DNA of 64,000 nt from Janthinobacterium sp. SUN073 (GTDB taxonomy: Bacteria; Pseudomonadota; Gammaproteobacteria; Burkholderiales; Burkholderiaceae_D). A program made the position numbers and the translations under genes. Positions within the stretch are counted from its first letter, which is position 1; each line of letters opens with the position of its first letter. Of the stretch, positions 20,699-51,894 are shown piece after piece. The stretch is from positions 1 to 64,000 of the forward strand of contig NZ_JAPUBT010000007.1 in NCBI RefSeq assembly GCF_030397665.1, given 5' to 3'. The notes beneath the pieces are model-generated. The model worked only from the letters and a program-made list of their open reading frames with translations, ran no database searches and was not told the origin of the DNA.

Positions 20699-21015
20699 AC
20701 GCGGAGGGAACAAGAGGAAATTCTCGCCCAGCGACTGGACGATCTGCTGGCGGCTGACGATGCGCTCCGGTTCGGCCATCAGGACGTGCAGCACCGTCAC
20801 ATCCTGTTGTGACAGCGCAATGGCGTCGCCTCCGGGCGGCAGCAGGCGGCGCGGCCCCAGTTCCAGCACTCAGGCCGTGACGGGCGCTGCGATGGCAGCA
20901 GCGGCCGGTTCACCCAGGCGCCGCGCCAGCGCGCTCAGGGTGGCCGCCAGTTCATCCAGGTCGGCGCTCTTGGGCAGGTAATAGCAAGCCGCAGGGGCGT
21001 CATGCCCCGCATGGT
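20699..21015 (-). pseudogene. Remnant of an OmpR-type response regulator
   Basis: On the minus strand, the end of a receiver domain (C-Y-Y-L-P-K-S-A-D-L-D-E-L-A-A-T-L-S-A-L) is readable up to a TGA at 20870-20872. A neighbouring frame then continues with the start of an OmpR-type winged helix (D-A-I-A-L-S-Q-Q-D-V-T-V-L, then E-R-I-V-S-R-Q-Q-I-V-Q-S-L-G). The two belong together but are out of frame, and the gene is cut at both ends: the receiver Asp and the recognition helix are missing. Similarity stops where repeat array A begins. It lies divergent to the histidine kinase at 21029 and was probably its former partner. Confidence 0.6.
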
Positions 21016-21028
21016 AAGCTCCTGCGCC

Positions 21029-23035
21029 ATGAAAATCCTGTTCGCCATTGTTCTGTTCTTCGCCACCCTGCAAGCGCTGGCCGGCGTGGCCGCGCCCGTA
21101 TCGGCGCCACTGCTGCTGCCAGCCAGCGGGCAGCCCGTGTCGGCCAGCGGCCACATGCAGATGCTGCGCGATACTTCCGGCCAGCTGGGTCCGGAAGCCG
21201 CGCTGAGCGCACCCGGCTGGCGCACCCTGCCTGGCGCCGTCAGTGCCGGCTACACGCAGGATGCCATCTGGCTGCGCCTGGAGGTGACGCGCGCGGCGCA
21301 GTCGCCCGATGAATGGGTATTGCGTTTTAGCAACGCCGTACTCGATGACGTGCGCCTGTATCGCCAGGATCAGGCCGGACACTGGCTGCGGCAAGAGGCG
21401 GGCGCCGATGTGATCCGCGACGCCTGGCCCATCGATGCGCGCCAGGTGGTGTTTCCCGTGCAGCTGCAAGCGGATCAGCCACAGCGCTGGCTGGTGCGCC
21501 TGCACACCAAGAAAGCCATGTCGACGGAGCTGACGTTATTGCCCAGCGCCAGCTTCGACGCTTCCTCGCGCCGCGAATACCTGTATTACGGCTTGCAGTT
21601 TGGCAGTTATTTGCTGCTGATCCTGTTCCATATCTTTTTCTGGCGCATGACACGCGAAGCCCACAGCGGCTGGTACCTGCTGTATGTGTTGACGAATGCC
21701 ACCACGGAAGCGCTGACGATCGCCATTCCCCAGCAAATCTTCGCCATGCCGAACGGCTTGTCCGACCCCATGCTGGGCGTATCGATGGCCATGTCGATTG
21801 CCGTCGGCGCGCGTTTTTCCACCTTGCAACTGGAGCTGCCCGCCCTGTATCCCCGTTTCAGCCGTGCCGTGGTGGGCATCACGGCCGCCGCCGCCCTGTT
21901 CGGGGCGCTGCTGGTGCTGCGCGGCGACTATGCTGCAGGCGTGCTGGTGGTGCAAATGACGGCCTTGCCGCTGATCGTGCTGTTCATCGGCCTGGCCAGC
22001 TGGCTGGCGCTGCGCGGCCATCGCCCGGCGCATGCCTTTCTGTTCATTTTCGGCATCTTCTACGCCGGTGTCATCATCAGCTTCCTGCGCAACATGGCCG
22101 TGGTGCCGCCGAATTTCTGGACCAACCATGCGGCCACCCTGGGCGCCTTTGTCCACATGATGCTGATGAGCCTGCGCCTCAACCGCCGCTACGCGGAATT
22201 GCGCCGCGCCAAGGACAGGGCACAGGCCGACGCCGTGCGTGCCGTGCGCGCACTCAATGAACGCCTGGAAGAGCAGGTGGCGCGACGCACGCTGGCGCTG
22301 CAACAGGAAATCGGCCGGCGCGCCGCACTCGAAGGCGAATTGCGTGCCGCCCTGGAAGTGGAAACCCGCACGCGCGAAGAACAGCAGGATTTCGTTGCCA
22401 TGGTGTCGCATGAATTTCACACGCCGCTGGCCATCATCAACACCACGGCCCAGCAAATTGCCCGCAACACGGAGGCGCCACGGGAAAAAACCTTGCAGCG
22501 CTGCCAGAATTTGCGCGAAGCGAGCGGCCGCATGACGGCGCTGGTGGATGAATACCTGAGCGCCGACCGCATGGAAACGAGCGCGGCGACGTTCCGTCCC
22601 CAGCCATGCGACTTGCGCGCCCTGCTGCGCGCCGTGCTGGCCGAATGGCCCGATGGCCGCATCGATGCCAGCGTGCAGGCGCTGCCCGACAGCGTCGTGG
22701 CCGATGCCAGCCTGCTGCGCGTGGCCCTGCGCAACCTGCTCAGCAATGCTGACCGGCATGCGCCGCAGACCCAGGCGATTCGCGTGCAAGCCACCACGCT
22801 CGGGGACGGCCGCGTGCAAATCGTCGTCAGCAATGCGGGCGAGCCCCTGCCTGCCGATGAAATCCCGCGCCTGTTCCAGAAATACTTCCGCGGCCGCATC
22901 GCCCAGCACAAGCCTGGCGCAGGCTTGGGCCTGTACCTGGTTCAGCGCATCGCCGAATTGCACGGCGGCCAGGTCACCCTCGACAGTGCCGGCAACAACG
23001 GCACCATCAGCTTCGCCCTGCGCCTGCCCGCCTGA
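21029..23035 (+). CDS. Membrane sensor histidine kinase of the 7TMR-DISM type
   Basis: 668 residues from ATG 21029 (an earlier in-frame ATG at 21002 is possible). A signal-like N-terminus is followed by a periplasmic 7TMR-DISM extracellular domain (about 25-180), seven hydrophobic segments (about 185-390), a coiled coil, and a HisKA/HATPase core. The phospho-acceptor is His461 in M-V-S-H-E-F-H-T-P-L; the N box is N-L-L-S-N-A-D-R-H and the G box is G-A-G-L-G-L-Y. It should autophosphorylate in response to an external ligand and signal to a response regulator, but the adjacent regulator gene is a frameshifted remnant, so the kinase appears orphaned. Both flanks carry DnaA-box-like arrays. Confidence 0.88.
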   Translation: MKILFAIVLFFATLQALAGVAAPVSAPLLLPASGQPVSASGHMQMLRDTSGQLGPEAALSAPGWRTLPGAVSAGYTQDAIWLRLEVTRAAQSPDEWVLRFSNAVLDDVRLYRQDQAGHWLRQEAGADVIRDAWPIDARQVVFPVQLQADQPQRWLVRLHTKKAMSTELTLLPSASFDASSRREYLYYGLQFGSYLLLILFHIFFWRMTREAHSGWYLLYVLTNATTEALTIAIPQQIFAMPNGLSDPMLGVSMAMSIAVGARFSTLQLELPALYPRFSRAVVGITAAAALFGALLVLRGDYAAGVLVVQMTALPLIVLFIGLASWLALRGHRPAHAFLFIFGIFYAGVIISFLRNMAVVPPNFWTNHAATLGAFVHMMLMSLRLNRRYAELRRAKDRAQADAVRAVRALNERLEEQVARRTLALQQEIGRRAALEGELRAALEVETRTREEQQDFVAMVSHEFHTPLAIINTTAQQIARNTEAPREKTLQRCQNLREASGRMTALVDEYLSADRMETSAATFRPQPCDLRALLRAVLAEWPDGRIDASVQALPDSVVADASLLRVALRNLLSNADRHAPQTQAIRVQATTLGDGRVQIVVSNAGEPLPADEIPRLFQKYFRGRIAQHKPGAGLGLYLVQRIAELHGGQVTLDSAGNNGTISFALRLPA

Positions 23036-23187
23036 TGGCTCCGCATTCCCGACTGCATCAGTCGGGAATCGCTCAGGTTTTGCCCAACCTCACATTCTTC
23101 CCTTCTGCTACGCCTGCAACACCTGGACCAGCGCAACGCCGTGTATCCCGATGCCGGGCCAGGCCTGCCCTGATCAATGGCAGTACT

Positions 23188-23509
23188 TGCACACATGCTA
23201 TCCACCGCCTATTCACGCGCTTTTCCACAGGCTTACCCACAACAACAATAGACAAGCCGGTGGCAAAAAGACAGTTATCCCCACTTGTACCCAGACTATC
23301 CAGCGCTTATCCGCAGGCTTACGCACAGACTTATCCACAATACGGGGATAAATGCCGCTGCGGTGCTTGCGGCGAGCGGCAATCGAAGAAAAAGGCAGCG
23401 ACAGGCGCATGCCAGGCGGTAGGAAGCAACTTGCCAACAGCTTATGCACGGGCTTGCACACAGACTTATCCGCCACTTGTGCAGCCGCTTACCCACATAG
23501 TTATCCACA
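23188..23509. repeat. Array of degenerate DnaA-box-like repeats (array B)
   Basis: The 527-base gap between the histidine kinase and glmU is filled with units such as CTATCCACC, TTTTCCACA, TTACCCACA, TTATCCGCA, TTACGCACA and TTATGCACG. Two perfect boxes TTATCCACA occur at 23331-23339 and 23501-23509. Units share one orientation and are often separated by 11-13 bases. The composition and spacing match array A at 20,419-20,698. No protein-coding gene is credible here. Confidence 0.6.
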
Positions 23510-23518
23510 AATAAAAAA

Positions 23519-23538
23519 GGCAGGCCGCGCGGCCTGCC
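23519..23538 (-). terminator. glmU terminator
   Basis: GGCAGGCCGC-GCGGCCTGCC is a perfect inverted repeat. On the minus strand it is followed by a run of six T, 25 bases beyond the glmU stop codon. This is a typical intrinsic terminator. Confidence 0.85.
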
Positions 23539-23562
23539 TGTGTGCAAAATGGAACGTGGCGC

Positions 23563-24939
23563 TTACTTCTTGATTTTCACGGGGCGCGTCCAGCCGTCGA
23601 TGGTCACTTGCCGCGCGCGCGAGACCGTCAGCTTGCCGGCCGGCGCATCTTTCGACAAGGTCGTGCCGGCGCCAAGGGTGGCGCCCTTGCCGACGGTGAC
23701 GGGCGCGATCAGCTGGCTGTCGCTGCCGATAAAGGCGTCGTCTTCAATCACCGTGCGGAACTTGTTCACGCCATCGTAGTTGCAGGTGATCGTGCCGGCG
23801 CCGATGTTGACCTTCGAGCCGATGGTGGCGTCGCCGATGTAGGCCAGGTGGTTGGCCTTGCTGTGCGCGGCGATCTGGCTGTTTTTCACTTCGACGAAGT
23901 TACCGATATGCACGTCTTCCGCCAGGACCGTGCCGGGGCGCAGCCGCGCGTAGGGGCCGATGATGGAGGCGGCACCGACGACGGCGTCCTCGATATGGCA
24001 AAACGGCTTGATGTGCGCGCCAGCGGCCACCGTGGCGTTGATGATGACGTTGTTGGCGCCCACGCGCACGCCGTCGCCCAGTTCGACGCTGCCTTCGAAC
24101 ACGCAGCCGACGTCGATGGTGACATCGCGGCCGCAAATGAGTTCGCCGCGCACGTCGATGCGGGCCGGGTCCAGCAGGGTCACGCCCCGTTCCAGCAGCG
24201 CTTGCGCGATATTGTTCTGGTGGATGCGTTCCAGCTGCGCCAGTTGCACCTTGCTGTTGACGCCCGCCACTTCCCACACGGCAGCCGGGTGGGCCGAGGT
24301 GACGGCCACGCCATCGGCGACGGCCTGGGCGACGATATCGGTCAGATAGTATTCCCCCTGCGCATTGTCATTCGACAAGGCCGACAACCATTGTTTGAGC
24401 TGCACGGTGGGCGCGACCATGATGCCGCTGTTGATTTCGCGGATGGCGCGCTCTTCTGGCGTGGCATCCTTTTCCTCGACGATGCGCACGATGGCGCCAT
24501 TGTCGCGCACGATGCGGCCCAGGCCGAAGGGATCGTCCTGTTCCACGGTCAAGATGGCCAGCTTGTCGTTGCCGGCCGCCTGCACCAGTTGCTGCAGGGA
24601 AGCGGCGCTGGTCAGCGGCACGTCGCCGTACAGGATCAGGGTCGGCACGCTGTCATCGAGCAAGGACACCGCTTGCTGCACCGCATGGCCGGTGCCCAGC
24701 TGCTGCGTTTGCTCGGCGGCGTCGATCGTCAGGGCATGGCTGCTCTTGTAGCCGTCGAGCAACTTCAGCACGGCGGCGCCCCCATGCCCGTAAATCACGC
24801 ATAATCGGGACGGCGCCAGGCCGCGCGCCGTGTCGATGACGTGCGACAACAGCGGCTTGCCAGCCAGCGGGTGCAATACCTTGGGCAGTGCCGACTGCAT
24901 GCGTTTGCCCATACCGGCAGCGAGAATGACAACGTTCAT
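23563..24939 (-). CDS. glmU: Bifunctional GlmU (GlcN-1-P acetyltransferase / GlcNAc-1-P uridyltransferase)
   Basis: 458 residues from ATG 24939, which begins directly with [14 protein letters not shown], the nucleotide-binding signature of the pyrophosphorylase domain. Longer frames to 25050 would overlap the divergent neighbour and are rejected. The N-terminal half (1-230) joins UTP to GlcNAc-1-phosphate; the C-terminal left-handed beta-helix (repeated I/V/L-G-x4 hexapeptides from about 250) acetylates GlcN-1-phosphate. The product UDP-GlcNAc feeds peptidoglycan and LPS, downstream of GlmS encoded 4 kb away. Only 25 bases separate it from the divergent lipoprotein gene. Confidence 0.96.
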
Positions 24940-24964
24940 AGACCGTCTTTTATAAGTTAAGAAT

Positions 24965-25870
24965 ATGAAAAAGTTTAACATGCAGGCCCCCACTTCCACG
25001 CCCTTTGGGCGTTTTACATATGCCGTGCTGGCCCTCATGCTCGTCGTCATGGCCGGCTGCAGCGGCTTGCGCCTGGCCTACAACAACGGCGATACCGTGC
25101 TGTACTGGTGGCTGAATGCGTATGTCGATCTGGACCGCGACCAGAAGGGCTGGGTGCGCGACGACATCGACAAGCTGTTCGACTGGCACCGCAAGACGCA
25201 ATTGAAGGATTACGTGGACATCCTGCGCACGGGCCAGAAGCAGCTGCAAGGCAATATCACGCAGGCGGACCTGATGGCCGACTACGGCGAGGTCAAGCAG
25301 CGCACCCAGGCGCTGCTGCTGAAGGCGGCGCCCGAACTGGCCGACCTGGCGCGCTCGCTCAAGCCCGAGCAAATCGCCCAGATGGAAAAGAAGTTCAAGT
25401 CGAACAATGACGATTACCGCAAGAAATACCTGAGCGGCGACCAGGAGAAGCGCCAGAAACTGCGCTACAAGAAAGCCATGGAGCAATTCGAGCTGTGGTT
25501 CGGCAGCTTCAGCAGCGAGCAGGAAGCGATCATCCGCAAGGCGTCCGACGCGCGGCCGCTGAACAATGAGATCTGGCTCGACGAACGCATGCGGCGCCAG
25601 CAGAATGTGTTGAACTTGGTCAAGAAAGTCCACCAGGAAAAACTCGGCAAGGAAGCGGCCGCAACCTTGATCACGACGTTGATCAAGGACAGTTTCGAGC
25701 GCCTGGAACATTCCGAGCGCAAGGCCTTCTTCGATGCCTACCAAAGCAGCACGGCGCAGATGGTCTTGACGGTGATCAAGATCGCCACGCCGGCGCAAAA
25801 AGCCCACGCCGTCAAGCGCATGCAGGGCTGGATCGATGATTTCAATTCCCTGGCCGCGCAACCCAAATAG
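24965..25870 (+). CDS. DUF6279-type lipoprotein
   Basis: 301 residues. A signal peptide ends in the lipobox V-V-M-A-G-C-S with the lipidated Cys32. The mature part is highly charged and helical ([15 protein letters not shown] near the start, then L-D-x-D-Q-K-x-W-V), features I associate with the DUF6279 family of proteobacterial lipoproteins of unknown function. The position after Cys (Ser) predicts outer-membrane sorting. It is divergent from glmU by only 25 bases, so its promoter must overlap the glmU start region or the true start may be ATG 24980. No function is assigned. Confidence 0.8.
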
Positions 25871-25939
25871 ACAGGCAGCGCCAGCAGGGGAGGTGGGGCC
25901 ATATGCTATAGTGGCCGCCACCGAATTGAAGAAATCCCC

Positions 25940-26599
25940 ATGCAAAAAAAGATTAAAAAACCCGCCAAAGTCCCCGTCCACCACGCGCCGCCACCGAACC
26001 AGGTGCGCATCATCGGCGGCCAGTGGAAGCGTTCCGTGCTGCCTGTTTTGCAGGCACTGGGCCTGCGCCCGACACCGGACCGCGTACGTGAAACCGTATT
26101 CAACTGGATCAACCACTTGCGCGACGGCGACTGGGCCAACGCCCAGGTGCTGGACCTGTTCGCCGGCAGCGGCGCACTGGGCTTCGAGGCGGCCAGCCGT
26201 GGTGCGGCGTCCGTCACCATGGTCGACACACACACGCCCGTGATCCGCCAGCTGGAAGAAAACAAGGCGAAATTGCGCGCCGAGAATGTGCAACTGCTGC
26301 GCGGCGACGCGTTGCTGACGGCGCAAGGCCTGGCATCGCGCGGCCAGCGTTTCGACCTGATCTTCCTCGATCCGCCCTACCAGCAGGATTTCCTGGCCAA
26401 AGTGCTGCCCTTGTGCGCCAACCTGCTCAAGGAAGGCGGCATGGTCTATGCGGAATCGGGCTTGCCGCTGGTCTTCGACGAGAGCAGCGAACTGGACAAA
26501 CCCGAGTGGATGGCGCCGTGGGAAGTCATCCGCGCCGACAAGGCAGGCACCGTTTATTATCATTTGCTAACTTACAACAAAGTGCCGGCAACTGCCTGA
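25940..26599 (+). CDS. rsmD: 16S rRNA (guanine-966-N2)-methyltransferase RsmD
   Basis: 219 residues. RsmD methylates G966 of 16S rRNA within the assembled 30S subunit using SAM. Visible are the family start V-R-I-I-G-G-Q-W-K-R, the R-P-T-P-D-R-V-R-E-T-V-F-N-W motif, the SAM-binding V-L-D-L-F-A-G-S-G-A-L-G-x-E-A and the catalytic F-L-D-P-P-Y box of N2/N6 methyltransferases. A Lys/Pro-rich N-terminal tail of about 20 residues precedes the fold. It lies upstream of coaD, a neighbour it has in many bacteria, with about 100 bases between them. Confidence 0.93.
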   Translation: MQKKIKKPAKVPVHHAPPPNQVRIIGGQWKRSVLPVLQALGLRPTPDRVRETVFNWINHLRDGDWANAQVLDLFAGSGALGFEAASRGAASVTMVDTHTPVIRQLEENKAKLRAENVQLLRGDALLTAQGLASRGQRFDLIFLDPPYQQDFLAKVLPLCANLLKEGGMVYAESGLPLVFDESSELDKPEWMAPWEVIRADKAGTVYYHLLTYNKVPATA

Positions 26600-26663
26600 A
26601 TCTGCCTATAAATGAGGCAAAAAGGCTCCCTGGCCCGAGGCGCGGCACCAAATTCAGGCATAA

Positions 26664-27197
<534 letters not shown>

Positions 27198-27211
27198 GTA
27201 AGAGTGAAATC

Positions 27212-27475
27212 ATGGCATTACTGATCACCGACGAATGCATCAATTGCGACATTTGCGAGCCCGAGTGCCCGAATGACGCGATCTACATGGGCGCGGAAAT
27301 CTACGAGATCGATCCCAACAAGTGCACCGAATGCGTGGGTCACTTTGACGAGCCGCAATGCCAGCAAGTGTGCCCCGTCAGTTGCATCCCCTTCAATCCC
27401 GCCTGGCGCGAAAGCCCGGAGCAATTGATGGCCAAGTACGAACGCCTGCAGGCGGAACTGCCCGCCAAGCCTTAA
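27212..27475 (+). CDS. YfhL-family 2[4Fe-4S] ferredoxin
   Basis: 87 residues with two cluster motifs: C-I-N-C-D-I-C-E-P-E-C-P near the N-terminus, and C-T-E-C-V-G-H-F-D-E-P-Q-C-Q-Q-V-C-P with the longer insertion typical of YfhL/Alvin ferredoxins. It is a small cytoplasmic electron carrier. The gene follows coaD closely, an arrangement I associate with other betaproteobacteria. The physiological partner is not evident. Confidence 0.9.
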   Translation: MALLITDECINCDICEPECPNDAIYMGAEIYEIDPNKCTECVGHFDEPQCQQVCPVSCIPFNPAWRESPEQLMAKYERLQAELPAKP

Positions 27476-27576
27476 GCCTTTCTCCCGCGCCACTTCTGCG
27501 TGGCGCCAGCTTCTGCCAACTGTTCTACACTGTGTGCTGACTTATCCACAGCACATGGTTTCCACGGAGGTAGAAG

Positions 27577-32203: not shown

Positions 32204-35200
32204 ATGCACCCTGCAGGCCCCTCGGCTTTTACCCCGATTCCTTTTGCTGCGTTCCAGGCAGAAATCCTGCCCGAAGCGACACCCCAACGCGCCGCCATCA
32301 CCACCGCCTATAGGCGCGATGAGGTTTCCGCCGTGCAGTGGCTGTTGCAACAAGTGCGCCCCAGCAGTACCGAAACGACGGCCGAGGGACAAGCGCTGGC
32401 ACACCGCCTCGTCTCGAACGTGCGCCACAAACGCACACGCGCCTCCGGCGTCGATGCGCTGATGCACGAGTTCTCGCTATCGTCGGAAGAGGGTGTTGCA
32501 TTGATGTGTCTGGCTGAAGCGCTGTTGCGTATACCCGACAGTCAAACGGCTGATCGCCTGATCGCCGACAAAATCAGCAAGGGCGACTGGAAGAAGCATC
32601 TGGGCGAATCGCCGTCGCTGTTCGTCAACGCGGCCACCTGGGGCTTGCTGATTACGGGCAAACTGGTCAGTACCAGCAGCGAATCGGGTCTCGGCTCGGC
32701 CATGACCAAGCTCATCGCCAAAGGCGGCGAACCGCTGATCCGCAAAGGCGTCGACCTGGCCATGCGCATGCTGGGCAACCAGTTCGTGACAGGGCAAACC
32801 ATCGAGGAAGCATTGAAGAACAGCCGCGAGAATGAAACGCGCGGCTACCGTTACTCGTACGACATGCTGGGCGAGGCGGCCCTGACGCAAGCCGACGCGG
32901 CCAACTACTATGCCTCGTACGAAACGGCGATCCATGCCATCGGCAAGGCGTCGAACGGGCGCGGTATCCGCAACGGCCCCGGCATTTCCGTGAAACTGTC
33001 GGCCCTGCACGCGCGCTACAGCCGCGCCCAGCGCGCCCGCGTCATGGAAGAATTGCTGCCGAAGGTCAAAGCGCTGCTGTTGCTGGCCAAACAGTACAAC
33101 ATCGGCTTCAACATCGATGCGGAAGAAACGGACCGTCTGGAACTGTCGCTCGACCTGATGGAAGCACTGGCTTTCGATGCGGACCTGGCCGGTTTCGACG
33201 GCATCGGCTACGTGGTGCAGGCGTATCAAAAACGCTGCCCCTTCGCCATCGATTTCCTGGTCGACCTGGCGCACCGCAGCGGCCGCAAGTTCATGGTGCG
33301 CCTGGTCAAGGGCGCGTATTGGGATGCGGAAGTCAAACGCGCGCAAGTCGATGGCCAGGAAGGCTATCCCGTCTACACGCGCAAGGTCTACACGGACGTC
33401 TCTTACCTCGTGTGCGCGCAAAAACTGCTGGCCGCCAGCAGCCTGATCTACCCACAATTTGCCACGCACAACGCGCAAACCCTGGCGACCATCTATACCT
33501 GGGCGAAGCGCGACGGCATTAGCGACTACGAATTCCAGTGCCTGCACGGCATGGGCGAGACCCTGTACGACCAGGTCGTCGGCCCCGACAATCTCGACAA
33601 GCCGTGCCGCATCTACGCACCCGTCGGCTCGCATGAAACCCTGCTGGCCTACCTGGTGCGCCGCCTGCTGGAAAACGGCGCCAATTCATCGTTCGTCAAC
33701 CAGATCGTCGATGAAAGCGTGGCCATCGATAGCCTGATCCGCGATCCGCTGGAACAGGCGCGCCTGCAGGGCGGCTTGCCGCACCCGTCGATCCCGTTGC
33801 CGCTGGACATGTTTGGCAGCGAGCGCAAGAATTCGGCCGGCCTGGACCTGTCGAATGAAGACACCTTGCGCACCCTGGCCACCGGTCTGGCACAGCAGCA
33901 ACAATGGCAGGCAGCGCCGCTGATCGATGGCGCCGTCAGCCTGAATGGCCCCACGCACATGCTGCACAATCCGGCCCAGCACGACGATGTCGTGGGCAAG
34001 GTCATGGAAGCAGGTCCGGCCGACGTGGAAACCGCCCTGGCCAGCGCCAGCGCGTATGCCATCGAGTGGCAAACCACCGAGCCTTCGGTCCGCGCGCAAG
34101 CGTTACAACGCGCGGCCGACCTGTTCGAAGAACACCATATCGAGCTGATGGCCCTGGCCGTGCGCGAAGCGGGCAAGTCCTTGCCGAACGCGATCGCGGA
34201 AATCCGCGAAGCCGTCGACTTCCTGCGCTACTACGCGGCGCAGGTGGAACACGCGCCGGCGACCCTGGCGCTCGGTCCCGTCACCTGCATCAGCCCGTGG
34301 AATTTCCCGCTGGCCATTTTTACAGGCCAACTGGCCGCCGCCCTGGCGGCAGGCAACGTGGTGCTGGCCAAGCCGGCCGAGCAAACGCCGCTGATCGCCC
34401 ACCGCGCCGTGCAACTGCTGCATGCGGCGGGCGTGCCGCGCGGTGCGCTGCAATTCCTTCCCGGCAGCGGAGAAGTCGTCGGCGCCGGCCTGTGCAATGA
34501 CGCGCGCGTGAAAGGCGTGATTTTCACGGGCTCGACGGAAGTGGCGCAATTGATCAACCGCAACCTGGCAGCGCGGGCCGTGGCCGAAGGCATCGACATT
34601 CCCCTGATCGCCGAAACGGGTGGCCAGAATGCCCTGATCGTCGATTCGTCCGCCTTGCCGGAGCAAGTGGTGCAAGACGTGATGTCGTCCGCTTTCGATA
34701 GCGCTGGCCAGCGCTGCTCGGCCTTGCGCGTGCTGTTCCTGCAAGCGGAAATCGCGGACAAGACCATCCACATGCTGAAAGGCGCCATGCAGGAATTGCG
34801 CGTTGGCAATCCTGACCGCCTGGCCACCGATATCGGTCCCGTCATCGATGCGGAAGCGCAAAGCAATCTGCTGGCGCACATCAACAAGATGAAAACCGTG
34901 GCCATCGATCACTATTCGCTCGATTTGCCGACCGTCAAAGGCACGTTCGTCGCCCCGACCGTGCTGGAAATCAAGTCGCTGGCGCAATTGACGCAGGAAG
35001 TCTTCGGCCCCGTGCTGCACGTGATCCGCTACAAGCGGGCCGAACTGCCGCAACTGGTGCAATCGATCAACGACAGCGGTTATGGCTTGACCCTGGGCAT
35101 CCATACGCGCATCGATGAAACCATCGATTTCATTACCAGACGCGCGCATGTGGGCAATATTTATGTGAACCGCAACATCGTCGGCGCCGTCGTCGGCGTG

Positions 35201-35857
35201 CAGCCGTTCGGCGGCGAAGGCAAATCGGGGACAGGTCCGAAAGCGGGCGGCCCCCTGTACCTGAAACGCCTGCAGCGCAATGCACCGGCCGGTGCGCAGC
35301 ACCAGCGCCAGGCGCCGCCAGCGCTCGATGCGCTGACCGTGTGGGCCAAGATGCATGGCCACGACAAGGTCGAGCAACTGGCGCAGGAATACGCACGCAC
35401 GACCTTGCTGGGCAGCACCACCGTCTTGCCAGGCCCGACAGGCGAGCGCAATACCCTGAGCTTTGCGGCACGGGGCACGATTCTGTGCGCGGCGGCCACC
35501 TCCGGCACCTTGATGAACCAGCTGGCGGCAGTCCTGGCCACCGGAAACCAGGCCCTGGTGCTGGCGCAATCGCCGGAGTTGATCCCGGGCGACTTGCCTG
35601 CGGCGCTGAAGGACCGCATCCAGGTCGTCAGCAGCCTGGAGTCGGTCAAGCATGATTTCCAGATCGCCATGATCGAGCCGAGCCTCGATGGCCAGCTCAA
35701 ACCGCTGCTGGCGGCCCGGGAAGGTGCCCTGGTGGGCACCATCGCCACCACGCAGGAGGGTATCATCCCCCTGTGGCGCCTGGTCGCTGAGCGGGCGCTG
35801 TGCGTGAATACGACGGCGGCCGGCGGTAACGCCAGTTTAATGATGTTAAGTGTCTAA
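32204..35857 (+). CDS. putA: Bifunctional proline dehydrogenase / glutamate-semialdehyde dehydrogenase
   Basis: 1217 residues. PutA oxidises proline to glutamate in two channelled steps, with FAD in the proline dehydrogenase barrel (about 180-480; motifs G-R-G-I-R-N-G-P-G-I-S-V-K-L-S-A-L and the later R-L-V-K-G-A-Y-W-D) and NAD in the aldehyde dehydrogenase domain (about 560-1010; I-A-E-T-G-G-Q-N-A and nucleophile Cys838 in G-Q-R-C-S-A). A C-terminal ALDH-fold-like domain completes this long type. The N-terminus starts directly with the arm region and has no ribbon-helix-helix, so it cannot repress itself as E. coli PutA does. Control probably falls to the divergent Lrp protein. Confidence 0.96.
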   Translation: MHPAGPSAFTPIPFAAFQAEILPEATPQRAAITTAYRRDEVSAVQWLLQQVRPSSTETTAEGQALAHRLVSNVRHKRTRASGVDALMHEFSLSSEEGVALMCLAEALLRIPDSQTADRLIADKISKGDWKKHLGESPSLFVNAATWGLLITGKLVSTSSESGLGSAMTKLIAKGGEPLIRKGVDLAMRMLGNQFVTGQTIEEALKNSRENETRGYRYSYDMLGEAALTQADAANYYASYETAIHAIGKASNGRGIRNGPGISVKLSALHARYSRAQRARVMEELLPKVKALLLLAKQYNIGFNIDAEETDRLELSLDLMEALAFDADLAGFDGIGYVVQAYQKRCPFAIDFLVDLAHRSGRKFMVRLVKGAYWDAEVKRAQVDGQEGYPVYTRKVYTDVSYLVCAQKLLAASSLIYPQFATHNAQTLATIYTWAKRDGISDYEFQCLHGMGETLYDQVVGPDNLDKPCRIYAPVGSHETLLAYLVRRLLENGANSSFVNQIVDESVAIDSLIRDPLEQARLQGGLPHPSIPLPLDMFGSERKNSAGLDLSNEDTLRTLATGLAQQQQWQAAPLIDGAVSLNGPTHMLHNPAQHDDVVGKVMEAGPADVETALASASAYAIEWQTTEPSVRAQALQRAADLFEEHHIELMALAVREAGKSLPNAIAEIREAVDFLRYYAAQVEHAPATLALGPVTCISPWNFPLAIFTGQLAAALAAGNVVLAKPAEQTPLIAHRAVQLLHAAGVPRGALQFLPGSGEVVGAGLCNDARVKGVIFTGSTEVAQLINRNLAARAVAEGIDIPLIAETGGQNALIVDSSALPEQVVQDVMSSAFDSAGQRCSALRVLFLQAEIADKTIHMLKGAMQELRVGNPDRLATDIGPVIDAEAQSNLLAHINKMKTVAIDHYSLDLPTVKGTFVAPTVLEIKSLAQLTQEVFGPVLHVIRYKRAELPQLVQSINDSGYGLTLGIHTRIDETIDFITRRAHVGNIYVNRNIVGAVVGVQPFGGEGKSGTGPKAGGPLYLKRLQRNAPAGAQHQRQAPPALDALTVWAKMHGHDKVEQLAQEYARTTLLGSTTVLPGPTGERNTLSFAARGTILCAAATSGTLMNQLAAVLATGNQALVLAQSPELIPGDLPAALKDRIQVVSSLESVKHDFQIAMIEPSLDGQLKPLLAAREGALVGTIATTQEGIIPLWRLVAERALCVNTTAAGGNASLMMLSV

Positions 35858-35881
35858 ATTTTAAGCAGGCAATTAGCGCGG

Positions 35882-35913
35882 AAGGGCAGAACCAGTGGTT
35901 CTGCCCTTTTTTT
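35882..35913. terminator. Terminator between putA and mtnN
   Basis: AAGGGCAGAACCA and TGGTTCTGCCCTT form a long near-perfect stem with a very short loop, followed by a T run. It lies between the convergent genes putA and mtnN and can stop both transcripts. Confidence 0.85.
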
Positions 35914-35932
35914 ATGCACGCTTGAATGAAAA

Positions 35933-36709
35933 TCAGCCAGCCAGGCGCTGGCATAGCTGCTGGATCACCGTGAACGCATACGGCGAAGCGACCGTTTGCA
36001 CGAAACGCATGAAGTCGACGGCCGCCTCTTCGTTGGCGTTGTCGGAAATGGTGCGCATGACCGTAAATGGCACGCCCAGTTCAAAACATACTTGCGCCAC
36101 GGCAGCGCCTTCCATCTCGACGGCCAGCAGGTCGGGGATATCCACTTTGAGCTGGTGCAGATGCGCGGCGCTGCTGATGAACTGGTCACCGCTGGCGATC
36201 AGGCCGCGGTGGACTTGCGCGTGCTGCAAGCCAAACGCCGCGATATCGGCCGCCTTGAGCACGCTGGAAACATCGTCACGCAGAAAATCTTCCGCGGCAG
36301 CTGCCAGTTGCGTGCTCAGTTCCAGGTCCGTGGCGAAGCGCTGCAGTCCCGTCAGCGGCACTTCGAAGCGGGGAAATAAAGGTCGGGCGTCCATATCGTG
36401 CTGCAGCAGCGCTTCGGCCACCACAATGTCGCCGACTTTCACGTGTTTATCCCCACTGCCGGCCACGCCGGTGAAGACGATGTGGGTAACTCCGTACTTT
36501 TCCACAAGGATAGAAGCCGTCATGGCAGCGGCAACCTTGCCCAGACGCGACAGGACGCACACAGCGTCGATATTCCACAGGGTCCCCAGGGTGTAGTCGC
36601 GCATGCCGTGCGAGCGCCTCTGGGGGCCTTGCATGGCTTCTACCAGCCCTTGCTGTTCTTCGTGCAAGGCACTGATGATGCCTAAACGCATTTTTTTGTG
36701 TGAATTCAT
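35933..36709 (-). CDS. mtnN: 5'-methylthioadenosine/S-adenosylhomocysteine nucleosidase
   Basis: 258 residues (start ATG 36709; ATG 36691 would begin M-R-L-G-I-I-S-A-L, the usual N-terminus, and is an alternative). The enzyme hydrolyses MTA and SAH to adenine plus the thioribose or ribosyl-homocysteine, recycling methyl-cycle products. The family motifs G-V-A-G, the substrate loop V-E-M-E-G-A-A and the catalytic S-D-N-A box are visible. Its promoter would lie at the edge of the DnaA-box-rich region. speD, whose polyamine pathway yields MTA, lies at the far end of the window. Confidence 0.92.
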   Translation of the reverse strand: MNSHKKMRLGIISALHEEQQGLVEAMQGPQRRSHGMRDYTLGTLWNIDAVCVLSRLGKVAAAMTASILVEKYGVTHIVFTGVAGSGDKHVKVGDIVVAEALLQHDMDARPLFPRFEVPLTGLQRFATDLELSTQLAAAAEDFLRDDVSSVLKAADIAAFGLQHAQVHRGLIASGDQFISSAAHLHQLKVDIPDLLAVEMEGAAVAQVCFELGVPFTVMRTISDNANEEAAVDFMRFVQTVASPYAFTVIQQLCQRLAG

Positions 36710-36829
36710 GCTGTTTTTACAGGTTTTTTGAATTGCCAGACGGTTGACAGGGTGAAAACAGCCGTTTCGGCGACTTTTCCACCGTTCGCGTTTGTTTCTG
36801 TGTTTTAAATAAAGATGTATACATAAAAA

Positions 36830-36866
36830 TAGTAGTGATAGTAAACGGCCATTTTTTTGTGGATAA
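36830..36866. promoter_or_regulatory. DnaA-trio-like tract plus DnaA box, module 1
   Basis: TAGTAGTGATAGTAAAC (36830-36846) is followed 11 bases later by the inverted DnaA box TGTGGATAA (36858-36866). Reading away from the box, the triplets appear as 3'-AAT/GAT-5' steps, the form described for DnaA-trios in basal origin unwinding regions. Confidence 0.55.
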
Positions 36867-37308
36867 GTCGGTATACCGCCGAAAAATCATCGACTTAGCG
36901 CACAAAAAAGTAGGCGCACAAGCATTGTATCTACGGAGGACTTGTTTGGGATAAAAATCGGGCTGTGGACAAAGATCGACTTTTCCCACATCTCATCCTG
37001 TGGATATGCAGGCACTTATCCACAGCAGCAAGCAAAAATCACGGGTTTTCTTGCTGTAGTGGCATGTTTGACGTGCTTCGTACGCTCAGATCCCTGTTTG
37101 GCAATCAAGTTTGGCAATTAAGCTTGAGCGACCACGGGCGCTGTTCTTTCGCGAACGTTGGCATCCAGGTGATTCCTGGAAGGCGGTTTGGCAGTGGGTC
37201 GCGCTGTCGCCGTTGGCTTTTTTTTTGGGATGCTTTTTGCATGCTTTTTGAAAATATCCCCGGACTTCCGCTTTTTTTGTCGGTTTACAATAGATCTATA
37301 TATAAAAA

Positions 37309-37345
37309 TAGTAGTAATAGTAAACGCGGTTTTTTCTGTGGATAA
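37309..37345. promoter_or_regulatory. DnaA-trio-like tract plus DnaA box, module 2
   Basis: TAGTAGTAATAGTAAAC (37309-37325) is followed 11 bases later by the inverted box TGTGGATAA (37337-37345). This is the cleanest of the three tracts and lies next to the run TATATATAAAAATAG, a good candidate melting site. Confidence 0.58.
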
Positions 37346-37776
37346 GTCACTTTTTTTCAACAGGATCAATCGTTTACGCGCAAAATAAAGCGTGCATAAT
37401 CGCTGTATCACGCGAGGAGCAAATTTGTATAAAATGCGGGTCTGCGCAAAAGTTCGTGTTTACTCACAAGTCATCCTGTGGATATCAAGTGACTTATCCA
37501 CAATCGCTTCAAATTCCCCTTCTTTTCGATATCGAATGGCTTGCTGGCCCTGTGCCTGACCAGGTCTGTTGACGTTCCCATTTTGTAAAACGGTTTGGCA
37601 GTGCGCGTGATGCCGGCCGTGCCGGTTTTCGTCGCTCAGTTGTTGGCTGGATTTTTTTTTGTCGGCCAAAGCAGCTCGTCGGCTTTTTTGAGGACAGGTT
37701 TGTGAACCTTCTGGAAGGCGAAGCACAGGCAAAGCACGCGTTGTCGGGTTTACCTTAACAAGATCGTATACAAGAA

Positions 37777-37814
37777 TAGTAATAGTAGTTAACGGCGCCA
37801 TCTTCTGTGGATAA
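37777..37814. promoter_or_regulatory. DnaA-trio-like tract plus DnaA box, module 3
   Basis: TAGTAATAGTAGTTAAC (37777-37793) is followed 12 bases later by the inverted box TGTGGATAA (37806-37814). The triplets are slightly rearranged relative to modules 1 and 2, but the distance to the box is conserved. Confidence 0.52.
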
Positions 37815-38169
37815 GTCCAGATTTATCCTTGTAAACAATCGCTTGGCATGCGGATAAGCGCTGAGTAAGCGTTGTATCTGCCTGGGACGGTTTCTGGACA
37901 AAAAAACGCCGCCGGAAAAAATTTCGTTTACGCACATATCGTCCCTGTGGATATCCATACGGTTATCCACAGCTTGCAGTCCCTGTTTTTCCCAGTTTTT
38001 AGCTTGTCGCGAGGCTTGCCACGAATAATGTCGCCCTGGCCCAGCACTGGTGGTAATCTCAATGTGGCTCAACAGCCATGCATGCATGAAGAAAGACAGA
38101 CTCTGGTAACGGGACGCGGCGGGGAGACACGCCGCGCGACAGCTTGATGGCATACCGAAAGGAGCTTCA

Positions 38170-39795
38170 TTGGAATCAGCAGGCGAATACGATTACATCA
38201 TCGTGGGCGGCGGCACGGCAGGTTGCGTGCTGGCCAATCGGCTCACACGCGACAAGGATGCCAACGTTTTACTCGTGGAAGCGGGCGGCAAGGACGATTA
38301 CGTGTGGATACACATCCCCGTCGGCTATCTGCATTGCATCGGCAATCCCCGCACGGACTGGCTGTATTCCACACAGGCGGACGCGGGCCTGGGCGGGCGC
38401 AGCCTGATGTATCCGCGCGGAAAAGTGCTCGGGGGCAGCTCCTCCATCAACGGCATGATCTACATGCGCGGCCAGGCCGGCGATTACGATCACTGGGCGG
38501 ACCTGACGGACGACGCCTCCTGGCGCTGGGACAAAGTCTTGCCGCTATTCAAACAAAGCGAGGATTACTACGGCGGCGCCTCGGAAAACCATGGCGCGGG
38601 CGGTGAATGGCGCGTCGAAAAACAGCGGCTGTCGTGGGATATTTTGAATGCTTTCCGCGACGCGGCGCAGCAGGTCGGCATTCCGAAAACCAGCGATTTC
38701 AACGGTGGCGACAACAGCGGCAGCGCGTATTTCGACGTCAACCAGCGCCGCGGCATCCGCTGGAATACCTCCAAAGCGTTTTTGAAACCGGCATCGCGGC
38801 GCCCGAATTTGACCATCATGACGGGTTGCCACGTGGAACGTCTGCTGCTGGAGACGACAGAATCGGGGCCCCGTTGCACGGGCATCGTGTTTACGGGCGG
38901 CGGCACGCAGTGGCAGGCGACGGCCAAACGGGAAACCCTGCTGACGGCAGGCGCCATCGGATCGCCCCAATTGCTGCAACTGTCCGGTATCGGCCCGGCC
39001 GCCTTGCTGCACGAACACGGCATTACGCCCGTGCTGGATGCGCCTGGCGTGGGCGGCAATTTGCAAGATCACTTGCAGCTGCGCATGGTCTTTAAAGTGC
39101 AGGGCGTCAAGACTTTGAACGTGATGGCCAGCAATATTGTCGGCAAGATGCAGATCGGCTTGCAATATGCGCTATTTCAGAGCGGGCCCATGTCGATGGC
39201 GCCGTCGCAGCTGGGCGCGTTCGCCAAGTCCGATCCGCAGCAAGCCACGCCGAATCTGCAATATCACGTGCAGCCGCTCTCCCTGGACAAATTTGGCGAA
39301 CCGCTGCACGCGTTTCCCGCGTTTACGGCCAGTGTCTGCAATCTGCGCCCCACCTCGCGTGGCCACGTGCAGATCGCGTCGGCCGACAGCTATGCGGCGC
39401 CGAAGATCGTCCCTAACTATCTCAGTACCCAGCAAGACCGCGCCGTGGCGGCCGACGCCTTGCGCCTGACGCGCGCCATCGCCGCCGCGCCGGCCTTGAA
39501 AAAATTTGCGCCGCAGGAATACAAGCCTGGCGTGCAATTTCAGAGTCAGGAAGAGCTGGCGCAGGCGGCCAGCCAGATCGGCACCACCATCTTTCACCCG
39601 GTGGGCACCTGCCGCATGGGCGTGGCAGGCGATGCGTCGAGCGTGGTCGACAGCCAGCTGCGCGTGCTCGGCGTGGATGGCTTACGCGTTGTCGATGCCT
39701 CCATCATGCCGTACATTACTTCTGGTAACACGAACTCGCCCACCGTGATGATTGCGGAAAAAGCGGCGCAAATGATACATGCGGCCTGGAAATGA
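38170..39795 (+). CDS. GMC-family FAD-dependent oxidoreductase
   Basis: 541 residues, probably from the TTG at 38170, which has AAAGGAG 5 bases upstream. The FAD-binding Rossmann motif is D-Y-I-I-V-G-G-G-T-A-G-C-V-L-A. The GMC signatures (G-K-V-L-G-G-S-S-S-I-N-G-M-I-Y-x-R-G and G-A-I-G-S-P-Q-L-L-x-L-S-G-I-G) and the C-terminal active-site regions F-H-P-V-G-T-C and N-S-P-T-V are present. The family oxidises alcohols (choline, glucose, long-chain or aryl alcohols) with transfer to a quinone or oxygen. The substrate is not evident. It lies between the oriC candidate and the Liv operon. Confidence 0.9.
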   Translation: MESAGEYDYIIVGGGTAGCVLANRLTRDKDANVLLVEAGGKDDYVWIHIPVGYLHCIGNPRTDWLYSTQADAGLGGRSLMYPRGKVLGGSSSINGMIYMRGQAGDYDHWADLTDDASWRWDKVLPLFKQSEDYYGGASENHGAGGEWRVEKQRLSWDILNAFRDAAQQVGIPKTSDFNGGDNSGSAYFDVNQRRGIRWNTSKAFLKPASRRPNLTIMTGCHVERLLLETTESGPRCTGIVFTGGGTQWQATAKRETLLTAGAIGSPQLLQLSGIGPAALLHEHGITPVLDAPGVGGNLQDHLQLRMVFKVQGVKTLNVMASNIVGKMQIGLQYALFQSGPMSMAPSQLGAFAKSDPQQATPNLQYHVQPLSLDKFGEPLHAFPAFTASVCNLRPTSRGHVQIASADSYAAPKIVPNYLSTQQDRAVAADALRLTRAIAAAPALKKFAPQEYKPGVQFQSQEELAQAASQIGTTIFHPVGTCRMGVAGDASSVVDSQLRVLGVDGLRVVDASIMPYITSGNTNSPTVMIAEKAAQMIHAAWK

Positions 39796-46907: not shown

Positions 46908-48065
46908 TCATAGCGCGGCCGCATAGATGGCGCGGGCATCCTCGCGCGTGACGACGCGCGGATTGTTGCCCAGCAAGCGCGTCTGCAGCATGGCGTCGTC
47001 GGCCAGCCTATCCAGATCGCTGGCCGCGATGCCCACCTCGCGCAGGGTACGCGCGATACCGGTGGCGTGCGTCAGCGCCTGCATGGCGTCGATCAGGGCC
47101 ACGGCCCGCGCTTCCTCGCTGCCCACAATGCCGGGCTGCACGACGGCCGCCAGTTGCGCATACTGCGGTGCCGCGTGGGACAGATTGAACCGCAACACGT
47201 GCGGTAGCACCAGCGCATTCGACAAGCCATGTGGCACGTGAAACAGTCCCCCGATGGGATAGGCGAGCGCATGCACGGCGGCCACGGGTGCATTGGCAAA
47301 CGCCTGGCCGGCCAGCATGGCACCGAGCAGCATGGCCTGGCGCGCCGGCAAGTTGCTGCCATCGCGGCAGGCGGTGACCAGGTTGCTGGAGAGCAGCGAC
47401 AGCGCCTGGGTGGCCAGCATGTCGGACAGGGGATTTTTCTGCAGGCGGCTGGTGTACGCTTCGATCGCATGCACCATGGCATCGATGCCGGTGGCGGCCG
47501 TCACGGCGGGTGGCAAGCCCAGGGTCAGGCTGGCGTCGAGGATGGCCAGGTCCGCATACAGTTGCGGCGCGACCACACCCATCTTGCTGGTGGTGCCCGT
47601 GGTGACGATGGCGATGTGCGTCACTTCCGAGCCCGTGCCGGCCGTGGTCGGCAATTGCACCAGTGGCAGGCGCTGGCCATGCACATTGCCGATGCCATAC
47701 AGTTGCGCCAGTTCCTGGTGGCCCGGCGCCAGCACGGCGATCAGCTTGGCCACGTCCAGCGAGCTGCCGCCACCGAGGCCGATAATCAGTTCCACGTGAA
47801 ACATCTGCGCGTGGGCCACGCCGGCCAGCACGATGGCTTCCGAGGGATCGGCTTGCACGTCGGCAAAGACGTGCGCTTCGATACCCGCCGCCAGCAGGCT
47901 GTGCAGGGGAGCATCGGCCAGGCCCGTACGCAGGAAGCCCGCGTCGGTGACGAGCAGGGCGCGGCGCACCGTGGGGAAGTGATGGGCGATGTGCGTGCCC
48001 AGTTGGGTGGCGGCGCCTGGTTCAACGATCAGATGCGGCACGGTGCGGAACTGGAAGGCGGACAT
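46908..48065 (-). CDS. Iron-containing (group III) alcohol dehydrogenase
   Basis: 385 residues. The NAD(P)-binding motif G-L-G-G-G-S-S-L-D-V-A-K, the P-T-T-A-G-T-G-S-E signature and the metal-binding region (D-A-M-V-H-A-I-E-A-Y, then H-A-L-A-Y-P-I-G-G-x-F-H-V-P-H-G) are all present. These enzymes interconvert alcohols or hydroxy acids and their carbonyl forms; some act on 4-hydroxybutyrate or maleylacetate. It is convergent with the hydroxybutyrate oligomer hydrolase gene with only 3 bases between stops. A parS-like site lies within the gene (47788-47803). Confidence 0.9.
   Translation of the reverse strand: MSAFQFRTVPHLIVEPGAATQLGTHIAHHFPTVRRALLVTDAGFLRTGLADAPLHSLLAAGIEAHVFADVQADPSEAIVLAGVAHAQMFHVELIIGLGGGSSLDVAKLIAVLAPGHQELAQLYGIGNVHGQRLPLVQLPTTAGTGSEVTHIAIVTTGTTSKMGVVAPQLYADLAILDASLTLGLPPAVTAATGIDAMVHAIEAYTSRLQKNPLSDMLATQALSLLSSNLVTACRDGSNLPARQAMLLGAMLAGQAFANAPVAAVHALAYPIGGLFHVPHGLSNALVLPHVLRFNLSHAAPQYAQLAAVVQPGIVGSEEARAVALIDAMQALTHATGIARTLREVGIAASDLDRLADDAMLQTRLLGNNPRVVTREDARAIYAAAL
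47788..47803. promoter_or_regulatory. parS-like site inside the alcohol dehydrogenase gene
   Basis: AGTTCCACGTGAAACA matches TGTTTCACGTGAAACA at 14 of 16 positions, with the right half perfect. Confidence 0.65.
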
Positions 48066-48123
48066 GCAGACTCCTGACAGTGAGGACAGTAGCCAAGCTT
48101 ACTCCGCTTTCCCGCCGTGCGCA

Positions 48124-48139
48124 TGTTTCACGTGGAACG
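48124..48139. promoter_or_regulatory. parS-like site downstream of the nuoA-like gene
   Basis: TGTTTCACGTGGAACG matches the consensus TGTTTCACGTGAAACA at 14 of 16 positions, with the left half perfect. It abuts the stop codon of the nuoA-like gene (48140). Confidence 0.7.
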
Positions 48140-48499
48140 CTATTCCCACTCCAGCGCGCCGCGTTTCCATTCATATGCCAGGCCGATGGCCAGGATGCTC
48201 AAGAAACCCATGACGGCCCAGAAGCCGGGCAAGCCGAGTTCGTTCACGTTGGCCGCCCACGGCATCAGGAAGATCACCTCGATATCGAACAGGATGAAGA
48301 GGATGGCGACCAGGTAGAAGCGGATGTCGAATTTCATGCGGGCGTCGCCGAACGCTTCGAAGCCGCATTCGTACGGGGACAGTTTTTGCGGATCGGGTTT
48401 GTGCGGACCGAGCACGCGCCCCAGCAGCATGGGCACGATGCCGACCAGGATGCCGATCAGAATGAACAGCAGGACGGGAAAATAGTTTTCGAGGAGCAT
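48140..48499 (-). CDS. nuoA: NADH-quinone oxidoreductase subunit A-like protein (stand-alone)
   Basis: 119 residues from ATG 48499. Three hydrophobic spans and the NuoA/NDUFA3 loop [22 protein letters not shown] are present, followed by [16 protein letters not shown]. NuoA is a membrane-arm subunit of complex I beside the quinone site. Here no other nuo gene is nearby: it is the second gene of a two-gene unit behind sugE (11 bases apart), under the guanidine-II riboswitch. It may be the genome's only nuoA displaced from its operon, or a paralog. The sequence alone does not decide. Confidence 0.85.
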
Positions 48500-48510
48500 G
48501 GGGATTCCTC

Positions 48511-48831
48511 TCAGTGGCTGGATGACAGTTTCATCAGCACGATGCCGCACACAATGAGGACGGCGGCGCACACCCGCATGGTGTTGAGTTGCTCGCCCAG
48601 AAAGACGACGCCGACGATAAAGGCGCCGACGGCGCCGATGCCGGTCCAGATCGTATAGGCCGTGCCCAGCGGCAGGGTGCGCATGGCGAACGACAGCAAG
48701 CCGAAGCTGGCGATCATCATGACCACGGTAATCACGGAGGGAGTGAGTCTGGTGAAACCCTCGGAGAGTTTCATCGAGTATGCCCACACGACTTCAAGCA
48801 TGCCGGCAATAAGTAACAGTATCCAGGCCAT
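48511..48831 (-). CDS. sugE: SMR-family guanidinium exporter (SugE/Gdx)
   Basis: 106 residues with four membrane helices, the small multidrug resistance fold. The E in G-M-L-E-V-V-W-A (Glu13) is the conserved substrate/proton site, and [20 protein letters not shown] is the Gdx signature. Gdx dimers export guanidinium in exchange for protons. A guanidine-II riboswitch lies directly upstream, which supports guanidinium as the true substrate and not quaternary ammonium drugs. AAGGAG (48837-48842) precedes the start. The nuoA-like gene follows after 11 bases. Confidence 0.93.
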
Positions 48832-48850
48832 GGCGGCTCCTTATACAGAG

Positions 48851-48894
48851 CGGGCCGTCCCGGTGTGTGCCCATGATGGGGGAGGCCGTCCTCC
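48851..48894 (-). ncRNA. Guanidine-II (mini-ykkC) riboswitch
   Basis: On the minus strand, two hairpins with ACGG tetraloops occur: GGAGG-ACGG-CCTCC (48881-48894) and CGGG-ACGG-CCCG (48851-48862), joined by an 18-base linker. Two ACGR-loop hairpins are the defining form of the guanidine-II class. The second hairpin ends 8 bases before the AAGGAG of sugE, so ligand-stabilised loop pairing would control access to the ribosome-binding site. The downstream gene is a guanidinium exporter, as expected. Confidence 0.85.
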
Positions 48895-48998
48895 TGGATG
48901 ATCGTCACTATGGCCACTGGCGTGACCACGGATACGGACGATGCGGCAATTGTAGCAAACATTGCTCGCCGCTGCAGCCCCATCGCGAGTCCGGTAAG

Positions 48999-49014
48999 TG
49001 TTCCACGTGAAACA
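48999..49014. promoter_or_regulatory. parS site upstream of mnmG
   Basis: TGTTCCACGTGAAACA matches the consensus TGTTTCACGTGAAACA at 15 of 16 positions (and fits TGTTNCACGTGAAACA fully). It lies in non-coding DNA between the divergent sugE and mnmG genes, 2.9 kb from parA. Confidence 0.85.
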
Positions 49015-51834: not shown

Positions 51835-51894
51835 GTTTCGGTCGGGTGCCGGAGCGCACGATGAAGTTTGCATCTCTTTACAACTAGAAGATAC

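Follow-up and report, generated by a model that had tools for sequence, protein, structure and literature searches.

Does the chromosome of Janthinobacterium sp. SUN073 begin its replication at an origin with one unwinding unit, or at one in which the unit is repeated? The question is raised by a locus in the genome of this strain (6.45 Mb in 34 contigs; family Oxalobacteraceae), where three modules of ~205 bp each lie on the same strand between mtnN and a gene for a GMC-family oxidoreductase. The locus falls within the window, which is the whole stretch of DNA analysed (64,000 bases, positions 1-64000 of its contig).

A module present in three copies

The modules and their surroundings comprise the following features, numbered from the first base of the window.

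35933-36709, minus strand: mtnN (MTA/SAH nucleosidase), left neighbour (NCBIfam PRK05584, 277.7 bits)
36821-37025, plus strand: putative origin module 1 (model match E=4.1e-39; alignment), with trio-like tract 36830-36844, R1 36858-36866, IHF-type site 36885-36897, TGTGGACAA 36964-36972, weak box 36982-36990, and the distal pair 36999-37007 and 37016-37024
37026-37299, no strand: spacer between modules 1 and 2, variable in length, compared part 59% identical among 26 Janthinobacterium genomes
37300-37502, plus strand: putative origin module 2 (model match E=1.3e-41), with trio tract 37309-37323, R1 37337-37345, IHF-type site 37364-37376, weak box 37460-37468, and the distal pair 37477-37485 and 37494-37502
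37503-37767, no strand: spacer between modules 2 and 3, variable in length, compared part 57% identical among 26 Janthinobacterium genomes
37768-37972, plus strand: putative origin module 3 (model match E=2.1e-39), with trio-like tract 37777-37788 plus TTAA, R1 37806-37814, IHF-type site 37833-37845, weak box 37928-37936, and the distal pair 37946-37954 and 37963-37971
38170-39795, plus strand: GMC-family oxidoreductase, right neighbour (choline-dehydrogenase-like, under the curated cut-off)
47230, 47788 and 48124: three further parS-like sites, 2 mismatches each
48999-49014, plus strand: best parS-like site, 1 mismatch
49061: mnmG, ~11 kb from the modules
51868-52665, plus strand: parA (Pfam AAA_31, 6e-65)
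52796-53680, plus strand: parB (Pfam ParB_N, HTH_ParB, ParB_C)
54370 and 56658: ATP synthase genes beyond parB, subunit a and alpha, respectively

Both mtnN and the GMC-family oxidoreductase gene also flank the modules in many relatives. ORFs of 90-132 aa in a program-made list overlap the modules, and the region 35000-39000 gave no Rfam match at gathering score that would indicate an RNA gene.

Each module consists, in order, of an AT-rich stretch, a TAG/TAA tract, a spacer, an R1 box (TGTGGATAA), 18 bp, an IHF-type site, a middle part, a weak box, TGTGGATAT, 8 bp and TTATCCACA. The spacer between tract and R1 measures 13 bases in modules 1 and 2. An earlier note on this DNA had described three copies 479 and 469 bp apart, and all of them were recovered with their elements (R1 starts 36858, 37337 and 37806). 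The distal spacing that it described is equally regular: TGTGGATAT starts 141, 140 and 140 bp past R1 in the three copies, and TTATCCACA starts 17 bp further in every one.

Perfect TTATCCACA boxes occur 11 times in the window against 0.26 expected, a count that none of 100 shuffles reached, and six of the 11 lie inside the modules' 1.2 kb, between mtnN and the GMC gene. The whole 6.45 Mb genome has 31 such boxes. The combined pattern TGTGGATAT-N{5,9}-TTATCCACA matches the genome three times, always at the modules and with N=8, and has zero matches in a control in which the genome was read backwards. Four more perfect TTATCCACA boxes, on the plus strand, are found at 20685-27550, to the left of the origin.

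Position of the chromosomal origin

Origins adjacent to dnaA are common (PMC4403523), and several relatives of this strain are numbered from dnaA. The locus might then be a region that is regulated by DnaA or titrates it, with the true origin at dnaA. GC skew places the origin at the modules. In a relative assembled as one contig (G004, 6.31 Mb), for which 40 stretches of 20 kb each were sampled, the arm that runs from the modules to 3.5 Mb has positive skew in 18 of its 20 samples, and the other arm has negative skew in 19 of its 20. The best single breakpoint falls at 360-375 kb, with the modules at 363.2-364.3 kb, and the terminus switch lies between 3.52 and 3.70 Mb. Here dnaA is at position 13, 363 kb from the modules, and all 10 samples between the two are negative, the sign expected for an origin at the modules; the earlier note, which suggested a possible origin away from dnaA, is borne out on this point.

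Two other genomes, in which the terminus was assumed to lie opposite the modules, agree with G004. Skew in G033, of the same genus, is negative in 5/7 samples before the modules and positive in 7/8 after them, including 4/5 between the modules and dnaA (12/15 agree). In G040, of another genus and with dnaA 719 kb away, it is negative in 7/8 samples before and positive in 10/12 after the modules (17/20 agree). A member of a third genus (G317) has a noisy skew that resolves no origin near its modules. On the SUN073 contig itself, skew within the window is -0.009 to the left and +0.025 to the right of the modules, and five of five samples further to the right are positive.

The dnaA region has just one perfect box, 138 bp upstream, and no match to the module model. 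In SUN073 dnaA is on another contig than the modules. Sixteen of the same-genus genomes searched have dnaA and the modules on a single contig; the distance, subtracted by hand with the genomes taken as circular, is 300-400 kb in 15 of them and ~566 kb in one. Near the modules, four parS-like 16-mers (0.03 expected) are clustered at 47230-49014, within 1.8 kb upstream of mnmG, and these sites and parAB are 9-16 kb away, in keeping with the neighbourhood that the earlier note had pointed out. With the skew switch at the modules, a single perfect box at dnaA, and the parS-like sites, parAB and mnmG close by, a true origin at dnaA is very improbable. The locus is almost certainly the chromosomal oriC.

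Two other assignments were considered for the locus. A bipartite origin, with two box clusters separated by dnaA, was rejected: dnaA is hundreds of kb away or on another contig. A datA/DARS reading of the locus was also rejected, as each of the modules includes an AT-rich and trio-like element and is located where the skew switches; it survives only for single modules.

An origin at a distance from dnaA has a parallel in chromosome 1 of Cupriavidus metallidurans CH34, where an excerpt of PMC2864759 describes a GC-skew switch ~90 kb from dnaA that adjoins 213 nt containing three perfect DnaA boxes, a region roughly as long as one module. Unlike the locus studied here, one such region is reported in that excerpt, which mentions neither a trio nor an IHF site nor any repetition; perhaps the region represents one such unit. 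Several DnaA-box clusters per chromosome are also a feature of the bipartite and double origins reviewed by Gao 2015 (PMC4403523). However, the clusters of the bipartite cases are split by dnaA, and the double origins are two loci, 150-882 kb apart in 3/4 cases, with no tandem matching units. An excerpt of PMC10225481 cites a strain of Vibrio cholerae in which two oriCs are functional.

Conservation and distribution of the modules

In three-module loci, identity between orthologous modules of different species is 86%, 87% and 82%, whereas paralogous modules are 60-64% identical, be it within or between species. Among 26 same-genus genomes, identity amounts to 87-94% in the trio tract plus R1, 81-87% in the middle part and 93-94% in the box pair, with 75-88% in the stretch just upstream and 57-59% in the spacers. 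Since orthologues are more alike than paralogues, and more alike than the spacers, the module copies are old and separately conserved.

The inner geometry is nearly constant. In a first set of 31 loci, scanned at distances of 131-150, R1 and the pair are 139-142 bp apart in 89 modules. In a wider set of 80 loci, scanned over a much broader range, the figure is 139-143 bp for 183 of 189 modules; the spacing that the earlier note saw maintained across diverged sequence is thus maintained in relatives too. The remaining six modules, all diverged, have 105-107 bp, and in these the script probably missed the true pair. The 189 modules are 198 minus nine from five loci that repeat others, and seven loci are common to the two sets. 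Start-to-start distances between modules span 275-3425 bp.

The best conserved extra element, which was absent from the earlier note, is the IHF-type site. Sites were called by sequence match alone, against the IHF consensus WATCARNNNNTTR. With at most one of nine informative positions mismatched, a site stands exactly +18 bp from R1 in 89/89 modules of the first set, compared with 2/1602 control windows. In the wider set it is present in 162/189 modules at one mismatch (controls 6/3402) and in all 189 at two.

A tree of the 189 modules (midpoint root) places the last modules of Janthinobacterium, Duganella, Pseudoduganella, Massilia and relatives in a right clade of 57 and the first and middle modules in a left clade of 85 (clade supports 0.86 and 0.93). 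A third group contains the modules of Undibacterium and other genera. Some modules depart from this order: G040 has both of its modules in the left clade, and in G042 and L228 modules two and three are both in the right one. On the simplest reading of this tree, the ancestor of the Janthinobacterium-Duganella-Massilia group would have had at least two units, with later gains and losses.

Copy number and arrangement vary. Among 40 same-genus genomes (that of SUN073 included), the exact box pair occurs three times in 34, twice in four and once in one, and is absent from one genome that is 82% complete; the matches of a genome lie within ~1.6 kb on one contig. With mismatches allowed, 26 of 28 same-genus loci have three modules; L029 has two, and in L030 the third match is just outside the stretch examined. 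A gene for a 930-aa GGDEF-EAL protein (2259-5051) separates the modules of one Duganella locus (L122). A gap of ~3 kb is seen in several further Duganella and related loci, though not in L138 and L162. In G200 the modules point towards one another from either side of an aldehyde dehydrogenase gene, and those of G226, G235 and G244 are inverted the opposite way. The inverted pairs are nearly identical in G244 (L298) and G226 (L299), which suggests gene conversion or recent duplication, and less alike in G235 (L300).

Variable copy number across family genomes, and the near-identical inverted copies of G226 and G244, which look recent or converted, are what neutral or recent duplication would predict, the copies being recombination leftovers without a function of their own. 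Against this, the copies in Janthinobacterium are old, each being kept at 82-87% between species while the intervening DNA is not, and the inner spacing is held within a few bases while the distance between modules is free to change. As a general account of the modules, duplication of this kind is highly unlikely.

For wider searches we used a module model built from 33 modules that had been found via the exact box pair, so that detection favours that form. Of 294 family genomes with a completeness of 90% or more, 280 were matched by the model. Counted by hand, 239 of these 294 have two or more matches, 41 have one and 14 have none. As the scan scored no more than the 8 best first-look candidates in any genome, modules could be missed; conversely, some counts are raised by partial matches on the reverse strand. 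Where a genome has a fourth match, this is probably an artefact, since loci of this kind contain overlapping partial matches on the reverse strand. All 33 Janthinobacterium genomes in the sample have three or more matches, and the genomes with zero or one match belong mostly to genera with smaller genomes. Because 41 genomes have one match and 14 have none, several units are not needed in every member of the family, unless copies were missed. Thirty single-contig genomes were chosen among those with two or more matches, a choice that omits some such genomes.

A pattern search found at least 119 stretches. Among the 80 listed, full-length model matches are from Janthinobacterium, Massilia, Duganella, Pseudoduganella, Rugamonas, Telluria and Undibacterium, and from MAGs or strains of the same family or order, and the listed pattern matches in Acinetobacter, Luteibacter, clostridia and others have a partial model match or none. 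Of 200 genomes of the order, 75 have a model match; six of these 75 belong to the family, and matches outside the family are weaker (best E 2e-17). Among the members of other families that were examined, G392 (L328), G489 (L332) and G447 (L333) have two units 240-430 bp apart; G417 (L336) has two units in opposite directions ~3 kb apart, and G477 has two model matches but one unit. Of 13 loci of other families in the order, chosen from model matches, 12 have at least one R1-like box with an IHF-type site and a TTATCCACA-like box beyond, and in 17 of the 19 rows in these loci the IHF-type site is at +17 to +19 (offsets searched +10 to +29). Judging from these sequences, repeated units may have arisen more than once in the order.

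Trio tracts and the number of initiation units

Under the published trio rule, a DnaA box must have three or more NAN triplets in unbroken succession no further than 16 bases away. Module 2 follows it, with seven uninterrupted triplets and a spacer of 13. Modules 1 and 3, judged strictly, do not: the tract of module 1 has a break after two triplets, and the triplet run of module 3 begins one base too distant from the box. Thus the earlier note was right that a TAG/TAA tract precedes every R1, and an uninterrupted A-centred run is limited to module 2. A score allowing one break, devised after modules 1 and 3 had failed the strict rule, gives 6, 7 and 5 for modules 1, 2 and 3 on the plus strand and 2, 2 and 1 on the other strand, and the observed scores were matched by 0, 1 and 1 of 500 shuffles. 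A one-break score of at least 4 is found in 86/89 modules of the first set and 131/189 of the wider set, and in none on the other strand. The triplets have the polarity of BUS origins, their strand running 3' to 5' with increasing distance from the box. Module 2 thus has a textbook tract, and modules 1 and 3 have conserved tracts that are interrupted or displaced.

Since the published rule is unmet in modules 1 and 3, these could unwind less well or not at all, and a division of labour between units is possible. The oriC might then have one module that is unwound, most likely module 2, with the others acting as cis reservoirs of DnaA, loading enhancers or datA/DARS-like regulators of DnaA-ATP. 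Relatives repeat the pattern, as the rule is followed by 29/31 second, 7/31 first and 0/27 third modules of the first set (55/189 in the wider set). Excerpts of the literature also describe an E. coli datA that likewise pairs DnaA boxes with an IHF site at a set spacing (PMC10380432), and distal boxes in B. subtilis that raise the local DnaA concentration (PMC6669920). However, the trio tract and R1 are 87-94% identical in all three classes of module, and modules 1 and 3 retain trio-like tracts of the right polarity, whereas minimal datA, as an excerpt of PMC10380432 has it, is boxes and one IHF site without an unwinding element. The tree pairs the first module of Duganella with the second of Janthinobacterium, and joins the first and middle modules of Massilia to the first of Janthinobacterium. 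Because these groupings cross positions between genera, no fixed 'main' copy is evident. A single unwound module is therefore rather unlikely, in our judgement.

The anatomy and conservation of the copies favour the three-unit oriC proposed in the earlier note, and the two tracts that fail the strict rule weaken the part of that proposal that concerns unwinding. In our view the oriC of SUN073 probably consists of three tandem units, facing the same direction, each of them complete for initiation; that all three are able to unwind is also likely, if a little less so. Each copy has its own elements, fixed geometry and strand polarity, and each has been conserved separately over a long time. From these features we infer that DnaA and IHF would bind the modules, that each unit would unwind and that the redundancy would be put to use.

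Initiation at a unit could involve binding of DnaA to the R1 box beside the trio tract, binding of IHF 18 bp further with bending of the DNA, and folding of DnaA at the weak site and the inverted distal pair back over R1. A filament of ATP-DnaA would then extend from R1 onto the TAG/TAA strand and open the AT-rich stretch, at which helicases would be loaded. Two or three units probably raise the certainty of initiation and store DnaA at the origin. Extra units need not mean extra rounds, since forks from one unit copy the other two within ~1 kb. With slightly more doubt than conviction, we suggest that two or three complete, independently firing orisome units at a single locus may have been selected across much of the Oxalobacteraceae and have re-arisen in other Burkholderiales, such that any unit could start a round and all would be reset together.

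By sequence, each module combines features of the E. coli and B. subtilis types, with a trio tract by R1, an IHF-type site at +18 and a distal pair at 140 bp. As in E. coli oriC, R1 has the same orientation beside the unwinding element and an inverted strong box is at the far end. E. coli oriC also has an IHF-like match at +18, but with 2 mismatches and three equal-scoring rivals elsewhere, and it adjoins mnmG, a gene that the modules too have in their vicinity, ~11 kb away; its match to the module model is weak (E=0.002). Unlike this locus, E. coli oriC has one unit, with R1-to-R4 at 180 bp instead of 157-158 bp, and its unwinding element has no trio run (1 triplet on the one-break score). 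According to an excerpt of PMC10380432, R1, the IHF site and neighbouring boxes make up the essential left half of E. coli oriC, the bend made by IHF carries the single strand to DnaA, and helicase loading is enhanced by the right half. For B. subtilis, an excerpt of PMC6669920 describes the passage of DnaA from a box onto the trios, with distal boxes also required.

The modules share with the BUS of B. subtilis and most bacteria the succession of box, spacer and trios with the right strand and polarity (excerpts of PMC6669920 and PMC8287927), and the 13-base spacer of modules 1 and 2 is the commonest BUS spacer length in the excerpt of PMC8287927. They differ from it in that three occur in one origin, with two of the three tracts failing the strict rule. 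The survey excerpted there narrowed to a single candidate in almost all genomes (PMC8287927); a screen of that kind would leave repeats unseen. Searches of open-licence PubMed Central papers gave no account of an oriC with repeated units, or of an origin of this form in the Oxalobacteraceae. Individual parts of the unit are already known, and the repeated, separately conserved unit appears new in the literature searched.

If independently firing units are true, the rule of 'one chromosome, one origin unit' would fail for a large group of ordinary bacteria. The locus touches the open questions of how many unwinding units are needed and in what way DnaA is passed to the trios by distal boxes and an IHF bend, and it offers a direct test of whether adjacent bacterial origin units fire, compete or back each other up. 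More than 200 sampled genomes with two or more copies, be they in tandem, split by a gene or inverted, constitute a natural experiment on unit number. The near-invariant R1, the +18 IHF-type site and the 140 bp to the distal pair suggest what a unit needs, and the variable parts show what it tolerates.

The SUN073 genome has a second cluster of DnaA boxes elsewhere (contig C31:111279-112265), with five perfect and four one-mismatch boxes in 1 kb. Four of the perfect boxes are spaced ~150-160 bp apart on one strand, and a titration or datA-like locus is possible.
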